Translations under genes and position numbers: made by a program
Shown: positions 10,988 to 17,545 of the stretch, in pieces
How positions within the stretch are numbered: the first letter of the stretch is position 1
Layout of the letters: every line of letters starts with the position of its first letter
Notes under the pieces: generated by a model
Told to the model about the DNA's origin: nothing
The model's database searches: none
Seen by the model: the letters and a program-made list of their open reading frames with translations, nothing else
From: Verrucomicrobiales bacterium
GTDB taxonomy: Bacteria > Verrucomicrobiota > Verrucomicrobiia > Limisphaerales > CANJXF01
NCBI GenBank assembly: GCA_947478865.1
Contig: CANJXF010000017.1
Location: forward strand, 1 to 64,000
DNA: 64,000 nucleotides
Direction of reading: 5' to 3'

Positions 10988-11464
10988 ATGGCAGCACCGC
11001 AAAAAGCCCACGCTAAGAAGAAATTCATGGAGTTTCTTGGCGGAAAAAGTTTACGGATCACGTCTCAGAGGCAGGCGATCATCGACACGGTTTTCAATAC
11101 GGAAGAGCATTTTACCGCGGAACAATTGCTGGAATGGTCGCGCAAATTGGATAAATCCGTTTCCCGCGCCACGGTCTATCGGACCTTGCCTCTGTTGACG
11201 GAAAGCGGTTTGGTCCACGAAATGGATTTTGGGAAGGATTGCAAAGTTTACGATCCGAACTACGCGGATCATCCCAATCACAACCACATCATCTGTCAGG
11301 ATTGCGAAAAAATTGTGGAATTCGACAGCGAAAAAATTGAGCAACTTGAGGGTGAAATCAGCCATCGCCTCGGATTTTCGGTGAAGACTCACCGCCTGCA
11401 AATCACCGGTAGCTGCGATGAATTAAAAAAGCTGGGCGCCTGCAAAAAAAAGAGCTCCTGTTGA
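10988..11464 (+). CDS. Fur/PerR-family metalloregulator
   Basis: The 158-residue protein carries the Fur winged helix (LRITSQRQAIIDTVF, then SRATVYRTLPLLTESGLV) and the metal-sensing dimerisation domain. The histidine-rich loop DHPNHNH covers residues 94-100. A structural zinc site is suggested by C103/C106 (CQDC) and the second group C143, C152 and C158 near the C-terminus. Members sense iron, zinc, manganese or peroxide; the sensed signal cannot be settled by eye. It is divergent from cinA with a 104-base gap that holds its promoter. A downstream ATG at 11027 is an alternative start but would remove the basic N-terminal extension. Confidence 0.9.
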   Translation: MAAPQKAHAKKKFMEFLGGKSLRITSQRQAIIDTVFNTEEHFTAEQLLEWSRKLDKSVSRATVYRTLPLLTESGLVHEMDFGKDCKVYDPNYADHPNHNHIICQDCEKIVEFDSEKIEQLEGEISHRLGFSVKTHRLQITGSCDELKKLGACKKKSSC

Positions 11465-16215: not shown

Positions 16216-16266
16216 GGCGCGGGGAATTTAGTAATTCGCTCCCAACTTACAAAGCTTTTCCCGCGC

Positions 16267-16294
16267 TTGACGTGTCTTTCGCCTTTGCTACCTT
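16267..16294 (+). promoter_or_regulatory. Candidate promoter of the aroF leader
   Basis: TTGACG at 16267-16272 and TACCTT at 16289-16294 are 16 bases apart, with TGC directly before the -10 (extended -10 type). Predicted transcription start is about 16301, just before the GTG of the leader peptide. Confidence 0.45.
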
Positions 16295-16303
16295 TTCCGT
16301 CGC

Positions 16304-16378
16304 GTGAATTTTTGCAGCTTTCGATTTAGTGCTGGCCGGTTTGGCGAATATTTTTTTCGCCACGCCTCCCTGCGCTAG
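16304..16378 (+). CDS. Putative Phe-rich attenuator leader peptide of the DAHP synthase gene
   Basis: The 24-codon frame runs from GTG (16304) to TAG (16376-16378). It begins MNFCSFRFS and continues GRFGEYFFRH. Six of 24 residues are Phe, all coded TTT, and one is Tyr, with a Tyr-Phe-Phe run at 16349-16357. A terminator hairpin follows at 16407-16433, then the DAHP synthase gene, whose product makes the first intermediate of aromatic amino acid synthesis. This is the classic layout of ribosome-mediated attenuation. No Shine-Dalgarno sequence precedes the GTG, so leaderless initiation would be needed. Phe codons can arise by chance in T-rich DNA, which keeps confidence moderate. Confidence 0.5.
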   Translation: MNFCSFRFSAGRFGEYFFRHASLR

Positions 16379-16406
16379 GCTGCGTTCGATTGAAACACAA
16401 CCCAAG

Positions 16407-16433
16407 CCGCAGGTCGCCCCTGCGGTTTTTTTT
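16407..16433 (+). terminator. Attenuator-type terminator upstream of aroF
   Basis: The CCGCAGG (16407-16413) / CCTGCGG (16419-16425) stem with a TCGCC loop is followed by eight T. The nearest upstream plus-strand gene in the window ends near 11.46 kb, so an ordinary end-of-operon role is unlikely. CGCAGG (16408-16413) can instead pair with CCTGCG (16369-16374), which lies next to the leader-peptide stop codon; this would form an antiterminator. Confidence 0.65.
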
Positions 16434-16461
16434 GTGACGACCCGCGCAACGTAGGAAAATT

Positions 16462-17475
16462 ATGATTATTGTTCTTAAACCGGATATTTCGAAGAAAGAC
16501 GAGCTCGCCGTCCTCAAGGAGATCAAGAAGCTCGGCTACAAACCGCACGTCATGCGCGGCGTGGAACGCACCGTCGTGGGGGCCATTGGCGACGAACGCA
16601 CTCATCAGAATCTCGAAGCGCTGAACACCTGGCCGCAAGTCGAGAAGGTCATGCCAGTGCAAAAGCGCTACAAACTCACCAGCCGCGAAGCGCACAAAGG
16701 CAATTCGACGGTGAACGTTTGCGGCAATATCATCGGCGGAAAAAAAATCCAAATCATGGCCGGGCCTTGCTCGGTCGAGGATGAAAAGCAGTTGCTCACC
16801 ACGGCTCATGCCGTGAAAAAAGCGGGCGCGACCATTCTCCGCGGCGGGGCATACAAGCCGCGGACTTCGCCCTATGAATTTCAAGGTCTCGGCGTAAAAG
16901 GATTGAAGCTGCTGGCCAAAGCACGGAAAGAAACCGGCCTCGCCATTATCACCGAACTGCTTTCTGAACAGCAGGCCGAACTCGTCGCCGAATACTCCGA
17001 CATCCTGCAAATTGGCGCGCGCAACGCCCAGAATTTCCAATTGCTCATCGCCGCCGCAAAGACAGGCAAACCGGTTCTCCTCAAGCGCGGCCTCTCGATG
17101 CGCATTGAAGAATGGCTGCTCGCCGGCGAATACGTGTTGGCCAACGACAACGCGAACCTCATGTTCTGCGAGCGCGGCATCCGCACGTTCGAAACCTACA
17201 CGCGCAACACGCTCGATCTTTCCACCATTCCGATTATCAAAAAGGAATCACACTGCCCGATCGTCATTGATCCGAGCCAGGGAGCCGGCCGTTCTGATCT
17301 CGTGGTCGCCATGTGCAAAGGTGCCGTGGCGATGGGCGCGGACGCGTTGCTCATCGAAGTGCATCCGAATCCCGCCGAAGCGTGGAGCGACGGCGCGCAG
17401 CAACTTACGATCGAAGGTTTTGCGAAATTGATGGAAGAGCTGAAGCCGTTCATCGCGGCGGCAGGACGGGAATAA
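16462..17475 (+). CDS. aroF: 3-deoxy-7-phosphoheptulonate (DAHP) synthase, type I beta with N-terminal regulatory domain
   Basis: The 337-residue protein has a ferredoxin-like N-terminal domain (residues 1-70, MIIVLKPDISKKDELAVLKE), as in Thermotoga-type DAHP synthases, and a TIM barrel. Barrel motifs are IQIMAGPCSVEDEKQ (metal ligand C103), GATILRGGAYKPRTSPYEFQ, QIGARNAQNF, LKRGLSM and PIVIDPSQGAGRSDLV, with IEVHPNPAEAWSDGAQ near the end. It condenses phosphoenolpyruvate and erythrose 4-phosphate as the first step of the shikimate pathway. The N-terminal domain is a known site of feedback inhibition in relatives. The gene appears to be controlled by a leader-peptide attenuator and is followed by its own terminator. 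Confidence 0.95.
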   Translation: MIIVLKPDISKKDELAVLKEIKKLGYKPHVMRGVERTVVGAIGDERTHQNLEALNTWPQVEKVMPVQKRYKLTSREAHKGNSTVNVCGNIIGGKKIQIMAGPCSVEDEKQLLTTAHAVKKAGATILRGGAYKPRTSPYEFQGLGVKGLKLLAKARKETGLAIITELLSEQQAELVAEYSDILQIGARNAQNFQLLIAAAKTGKPVLLKRGLSMRIEEWLLAGEYVLANDNANLMFCERGIRTFETYTRNTLDLSTIPIIKKESHCPIVIDPSQGAGRSDLVVAMCKGAVAMGADALLIEVHPNPAEAWSDGAQQLTIEGFAKLMEELKPFIAAAGRE

Positions 17476-17493
17476 TCGGTAATTTTTAAACGC

Positions 17494-17525
17494 AACCGCA
17501 GCGAGGAAACTTGCTGCGGTTTTCT
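17494..17525 (+). terminator. Rho-independent terminator after aroF
   Basis: The AACCGCAGC (17494-17502) / GCTGCGGTT (17513-17521) nine-base stem is followed by a T-rich tail (TTCTTTT). It lies 18 bases after the stop codon and makes aroF a single-gene unit. Confidence 0.85.
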
Positions 17526-17545
17526 TTTGCCCTGCGCCTCTGACG

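Follow-up and report, generated by a model that had tools for sequence, protein, structure and literature searches.

What does a short, phenylalanine-rich reading frame followed by a terminator hairpin do directly in front of a DAHP synthase gene? The question is raised by positions 16260–16461 of the window, by which we mean the whole analyzed stretch of 64,000 nucleotides from a Verrucomicrobiales bacterium. An initial annotation, made from the letters alone, had read this region as a leader-peptide attenuator that makes aroF respond to Phe and Tyr supply. We consider it very probable (at roughly 90%) that the leader is a ribosome-mediated transcription attenuator controlling DAHP synthase; its anatomy and conservation are described below from the genomes themselves, and it is from these that we infer a response to amino acids.

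Anatomy of the leader and its gene

The elements discussed throughout are the following, all on the plus strand.

16267–16294, +: promoter, TTGACG (16267–16272), 16-nt spacer, and TACCTT (16289–16294); seen in the sequence and kept in relatives
16304–16378, +: putative leader peptide frame with GTG start, 24 codons, and TAG stop, VNFCSFRFSAGRFGEYFFRHASLR; marked by in-frame aromatic codons across 70 leaders
16314–16319, +: core of region 1, GCAGCT, whose partner is GGCTGC beside the stop codon; own pairing exceeds cross-species pairing and slid controls
16343–16361, +: inner hairpin GGCGAA/TTCGCC, whose loop holds the control codons; a comparable hairpin occurs in 53 of 53 non-redundant leaders
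16349–16357, +: control codons TAT TTT TTT (Tyr-Phe-Phe), at conserved aromatic positions; the last codon lies 14 nt before region 2
16369–16383, +: region 2, overlapping the leader stop codon; identified by within- versus cross-species pairing and by pair counts
16407–16413, +: region 3, CCGCAGG, the 5' arm of the terminator, of which CGCAGG is the partner of region 2; hardly varies in the alignment
16419–16433, +: region 4, CCTGCGG (16419–16425), with eight T (16426–16433), forming the 3' arm and U-tract of an intrinsic terminator
16462–17475, +: DAHP synthase (3-deoxy-7-phosphoheptulonate synthase, with a ferredoxin-like N-terminal domain), by NCBIfam and Pfam

The window belongs to the Limisphaerales/Pedosphaera group of the Verrucomicrobiota. 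The identity of the regulated gene, proposed earlier, is borne out by a match to NCBIfam PRK08673 (score 464.5 bits, cut-off 335) and by the Pfam families DAHP_synth_1 and a ferredoxin-like domain. Its closest named relatives (77–91% identity) mostly come from Pedosphaera, Limisphaerales, and Verrucomicrobiales metagenome bins, a few of which are obviously misnamed. As the initial annotation had stated, no plus-strand gene lies within 4.8 kb upstream: the nearest real-looking one is a Fur-like frame ending at 11464. Directly behind the gene (17490–17527) stands another CCGCAG/CTGCGG stem, followed by a short T run; it closely resembles the leader terminator in sequence and is likely the end of the transcript.

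The 24-codon frame had been placed correctly to the base, including its six TTT codons and the Tyr-Phe-Phe run (codons 16–18). The CCGCAGG/CCTGCGG hairpin with its eight T is likewise present at 16407–16433, and the proposed antiterminator, in which CCTGCG of region 2 (16369–16374) pairs with CGCAGG of region 3 (16408–16413), is indeed complementary and shows compensatory change in relatives. The earlier parts list was thus accurate for what it named, but it had overlooked region 1, which pairs with the GGCTGC of region 2 (16378–16383), as well as the inner hairpin. The leader RNA folds better than shuffled sequence (z-score −4.9), and the arrangement as a whole is conserved; it is not a product of chance.

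Conservation, translation, and promoter geometry

The upstream regions of 110 orthologous DAHP synthase genes were compared, 89 of which are distinct. The same order of elements (promoter, start codon, a frame of 20–32 codons, terminator, and aroF) recurs in 70 of these 89, with the frame ending a median of 82 nt before aroF. A terminator is present in most leaders; six failed a strict terminator criterion, several of which still have a stem with a weak T run (e.g., L018). A covariance model built from the leader matches directly before DAHP synthase in 42 of the 47 same-order genomes that have the gene (hand count; 39 of the 42 at E < 1e-3), although many of the matched sequences had also trained the model. 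In order genomes outside the training set, the same aromatic frame was recognized by eye. All matches within the order at E < 1e-4, read by hand, lie directly before DAHP synthase. For a second match in the window's own genome (G000:C74), no DAHP synthase gene lies in the vicinity.

Across the 70 leaders, 24.6% of the codons in the proposed frame encode Phe, Tyr, or Trp, against 6.9% and 9.5% in the other two frames and 9.4 ± 0.6% in shuffled leader frames; the window's DAHP synthase protein itself contains 4.7%. This in-frame enrichment is the main evidence from which we infer that the frame is translated. Tests of substitution by codon position and of gap length between pairs of close relatives were too noisy to show coding by themselves.

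The initial annotation had also proposed that the promoter places the GTG within a few bases of the transcript start, and the geometry of the relatives fits. TTGAC is found between −48 and −24 in 70 of 70 relatives, and the full pattern TTGAC-N15..18-TANNNT in 61 of the 70 leaders (spacer N16 in 52). In the 61 leaders with a clear −10 box, the start codon follows it by 6–12 nt, and in 40 of them by 6–7 nt; in the window, the distance is 9 nt. With the usual distance of about 7 nt from the −10 box to the transcription start, the 5' UTR would be very short or absent and could not hold a Shine-Dalgarno site. To judge by promoter geometry, the transcript from which the leader peptide is read is therefore probably leaderless or nearly so, which would imply that these bacteria translate leaderless short frames.

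Competing helices and the position of the ribosome

Three competing helices can form in the leader: 1:2, 2:3 (the antiterminator), and 3:4 (the terminator), where region 1 consists of early leader codons and region 2 lies around the stop codon. On a plain alignment, RNAalifold recovered the terminator only, as the antiterminator takes either of two registers and the arms of 1:2 shift in position. For this reason, pairing between segments of one species was compared with pairing between segments of different species, using 53 non-redundant leaders. All three helices pair better within species: −25.2 versus −20.6 for 1:2 (p 8e-8), −19.5 versus −17.2 for 2:3 (p 3e-6), and −18.8 versus −16.6 for 3:4 (p 8e-8). 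The control pairings 1:3 and 2:4 showed no significant difference between the two settings in the same 53 leaders. Pair counts on 39 aligned leaders agree: a larger share of cells is paired in helices 1:2 and 2:3 than in slid controls (for 1:2, 83.8% versus 31–51%).

The antiterminator and the 1:2 helix thus show compensatory change. Within the order, the terminator arms hardly vary in the alignment, whereas the antiterminator differs in its outer part, with pairs such as CTCGGG with CCCGAG (L032) or TGCGGG with CCCGTG (L054). Its two registers are formed against the same region 3, one of the L032 type (CCTGCG/CGCAGG) and one of the L051 type (TGCGGCT/AGCCGCA).

These helices bear on two other accounts of the leader. 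The first holds that a plain intrinsic terminator, which might for instance close a small RNA or keep out transcription from upstream, happens to follow a chance short frame. A CCGCAG/CTGCGG-type stem also stands behind aroF, so such stems are not peculiar to attenuators; yet the in-frame aromatic enrichment, the two further covarying helices, the conserved promoter immediately before the frame, and the lack of a nearby upstream plus-strand gene make this account very improbable. The second supposes a metabolite-, tRNA-, or protein-binding attenuator (a riboswitch, T-box, or TRAP-like element) to which the frame is incidental. Such elements typically switch between a terminator and an antiterminator fold, and alternative folds of this kind are seen in this leader as well. 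However, what is conserved outside the stems is codon content rather than an aptamer-like core, and a search of the window and the relatives' leaders against the 4227 families of Rfam 15 gave no leader match at gathering score, nor a credible one at a relaxed threshold, where matches were at chance level. We regard this second account as hardly likely at all. The same search found an Acido-Lenti-1 match at L018:2645–2690, which lies downstream of the DAHP synthase gene and is unrelated to the leader.

Returning to ribosome-mediated attenuation, the placement of the control codons can be compared with the reach of a stalled ribosome. The last aromatic codon precedes region 2 by a median of 13 nt (interquartile range 11–15), which is roughly what separates a ribosome's A site from its leading edge. 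Taking the last aromatic codon as the anchor (100% by definition), position −1 is aromatic in 89% of leaders and position −2 in 68%. The inner hairpin has a comparable counterpart in each of the 53 non-redundant leaders (−9.1 kcal/mol on average, versus −5.5 kcal/mol for shuffled sequence, which is the fair comparison since the arms were chosen by pairing); its stem sequence varies between species, and at least two aromatic codons lie in or beside its loop in 41 of the 53.

Folding with a masked ribosome points in the same direction. When the control codons were masked and the RNA was folded before region 4, region 3 was captured upstream in 49–51 of 53 leaders, against 10 of 53 when the stop codon was masked. 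By computation, therefore, the control codons are placed such that a stall would free region 2, whereas it would be covered by a ribosome that has reached the stop codon. Once region 4 has been made, the terminator is favored at equilibrium even with a stalled ribosome (45–51 of 53 leaders); the switch must therefore work kinetically, which is the rule in this class.

The proposed sequence of events is as follows. Transcription would start at the leader GTG or within a few bases of it, and a ribosome would initiate without a Shine-Dalgarno site. When charged Phe- and Tyr-tRNA are scarce, the ribosome would stall on the Tyr-Phe-Phe codons in the loop of the inner hairpin, blocking the pairing of region 1 and leaving region 2 free. 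Free region 2 could then capture region 3 before region 4 is made, allowing the polymerase to read into aroF. With charged tRNAs at hand, the ribosome would move on to the stop codon and cover region 2, upon which 3:4 would form and transcription would end at the T run. If the leader were not translated at all, 1:2 would form and the terminator would win as well.

The window's own leader contains Phe and Tyr codons only, in line with the Phe/Tyr signal proposed at the outset. That proposal needs amending for the group: of the 53 non-redundant leaders, 44 contain Trp codons and 43 contain all three aromatic residues, so that Phe, Tyr, and Trp are probably all sensed. The device would thus identify a probable controlling signal of aromatic synthesis for many uncultured bacteria.

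A different way of sensing would be a TnaC-like, sequence-specific arrest of the nascent peptide, perhaps with a bound aromatic amino acid, in place of uncharged tRNA. A recurrent Y-F-S/W run followed by P or R would suit such a peptide, and a C-terminal L-R pattern also recurs, but the latter is explained by the RNA pairing of region 2. Moreover, no residue of the peptide is invariant, and both the length of the leader and its C-terminus vary. Phe, Tyr, and Trp are freely interchangeable at the control positions, which favors the sensing of charged tRNA and leaves a specific arrest peptide improbable.

Known systems, distribution, and loss

The Escherichia coli pheL-pheA and trpL-trpE attenuators contain four regions, control codons, a 2:3 antiterminator, a 3:4 terminator, and a stop codon by region 2, an architecture that they share with the leader described here. 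The E. coli leaders, on the other hand, serve terminal branches and have a ribosome-binding site, whereas here the leader precedes the common first step and no such leader is found at pheA or trpE. The latter was addressed before pheA in 28 genomes and before 30 trpE/pabB loci: a scan for a promoter and leader, run without a positive control, found no leader, and a scan for an aromatic frame plus terminator found none either while recovering the control aroF leaders. The common first step therefore seems to be the attenuated one.

DAHP synthase attenuation is already known elsewhere. In Corynebacterium glutamicum, the leader aroR precedes aroF and contains Phe-Tyr-Phe, and ribosome stalling under Phe limitation raises read-through (Neshat et al. 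2014, as cited in PMC11802643; also PMC4046766). As described in these papers, the likeness lies in the gene and the logic only, namely an aromatic leader peptide before a DAHP synthase gene. Unlike aroR, the leaders here belong to another phylum, often include Trp, and come from dozens of genomes with compensatory change. In Acholeplasma, the uORFC-13-1 motif before aroF combines a predicted Phe-containing upstream frame with a terminator and was proposed to be an attenuator; its reported occurrences are limited to Acholeplasma and unassigned environmental sequences, and it has a ribosome-binding site and at least one Phe (PMC8632094). Compared by description, it shares with our leader an upstream frame and a terminator before DAHP synthase. 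In the open-access literature, we found no paper on such a device in Verrucomicrobiota, where it is apparently undescribed; it adds a clade-wide attenuator to this phylum.

A precedent for the leaderless start is trpL of Sinorhizobium meliloti, where the attenuator transcript begins at the start codon of the leader peptide (PMC7298713). That leader, however, is a Trp leader before trpE(G), and the transcript start in our case was deduced from the promoter alone. Because the S. meliloti leaderless peptide sets a precedent for action in trans (PMC7298713), the peptide or the terminated leader RNA might do the same here, with attenuation as only part of its role. We think this unlikely, as the peptide sequence is poorly conserved apart from its aromatic content.

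How far does the attenuator extend beyond the order? There, the covariance model recognizes a single DAHP synthase leader (G302), and the remaining loci that it finds are probably ordinary terminators. A search blind to sequence, which looked for an aromatic-rich frame and a terminator before DAHP synthase elsewhere in the phylum, yielded candidates in 14 of 40 further stretches and in none of 200 shuffled ones. Two more loci qualified (L179/G081 and L192/G191) among 29 from other parts of the phylum. In 15 diverged leaders, aromatic codons account for 30% of the frame versus 9–10%, and the helices 1:2, 2:3, and 3:4 again pair better within species (p 6e-4, 3e-5, and 3e-5), which was not the case for the control pairings in this set. 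Diverged leaders of other classes thus have the same three helices in a different sequence. Some look leaderless (L304, L293, and L263), and others have a longer 5' UTR (L290).

The aromatic-rich frames with rewritten arms before DAHP synthase were seen in L278–L317, L259, L263, and L264, e.g., MNRYFSFGFYFGPRAARPSR (L304) and MSGKIYNSFYFYFGYRFYFRNGARCCMVGC (L289). Tentatively, and at somewhat less than even odds, an often leaderless, aromatic-sensing DAHP synthase attenuator may be an old or repeatedly evolved trait throughout the Verrucomicrobiota, serving as the main attenuation point for all three aromatics; the four-region logic and the Phe/Tyr/Trp codons would then have outlasted repeated rewriting of its RNA arms. 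Naturally rewritten four-region attenuators in such numbers allow helix register, control codons, and the position of the start codon to be compared.

The leader has also been lost. Retention of the hairpin after loss of the Phe-rich frame, the pattern that the initial annotation named as speaking against an attenuator, is clear in one lineage only among the 89 upstream regions, namely the near-identical L014 and L050. There, the promoter leads into a frame of 16 codons, one of them aromatic, and the terminator is changed (CCGCCGG...CCGGCGG in L014), a pattern that we read as decay of the attenuator in this lineage. In the other upstream regions, the frame, the antiterminator, and the terminator either persist or have, for the most part, disappeared as a set. 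L013 has kept the frame and lost a clear terminator; in L017, L026, L067, L082, L089, L095–L097, L100, and L102, neither frame nor terminator was found before the gene.

A TTGAC promoter stands directly before aroF in several lineages without a leader (e.g., L089, L095, and L097). In L089, L095, L096, L097, L100, and L017, the whole leader is gone and a TTGAC...TANNNT-like promoter lies close before the start codon of DAHP synthase; this looks like a deletion of the leader that, in some of them, left aroF itself leaderless. A different arrangement is seen in L084, where a tRNA-Leu(gag) gene (1225–1309) precedes the start of the aromatic leader frame MNSIRSGYSISLWRGFFAFAVRLSAWTV by about 20 nt, with DAHP synthase at 1501. 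Given this short distance, transcription of the attenuator in L084, and the formation of its 5' end, may be coupled to those of a tRNA.
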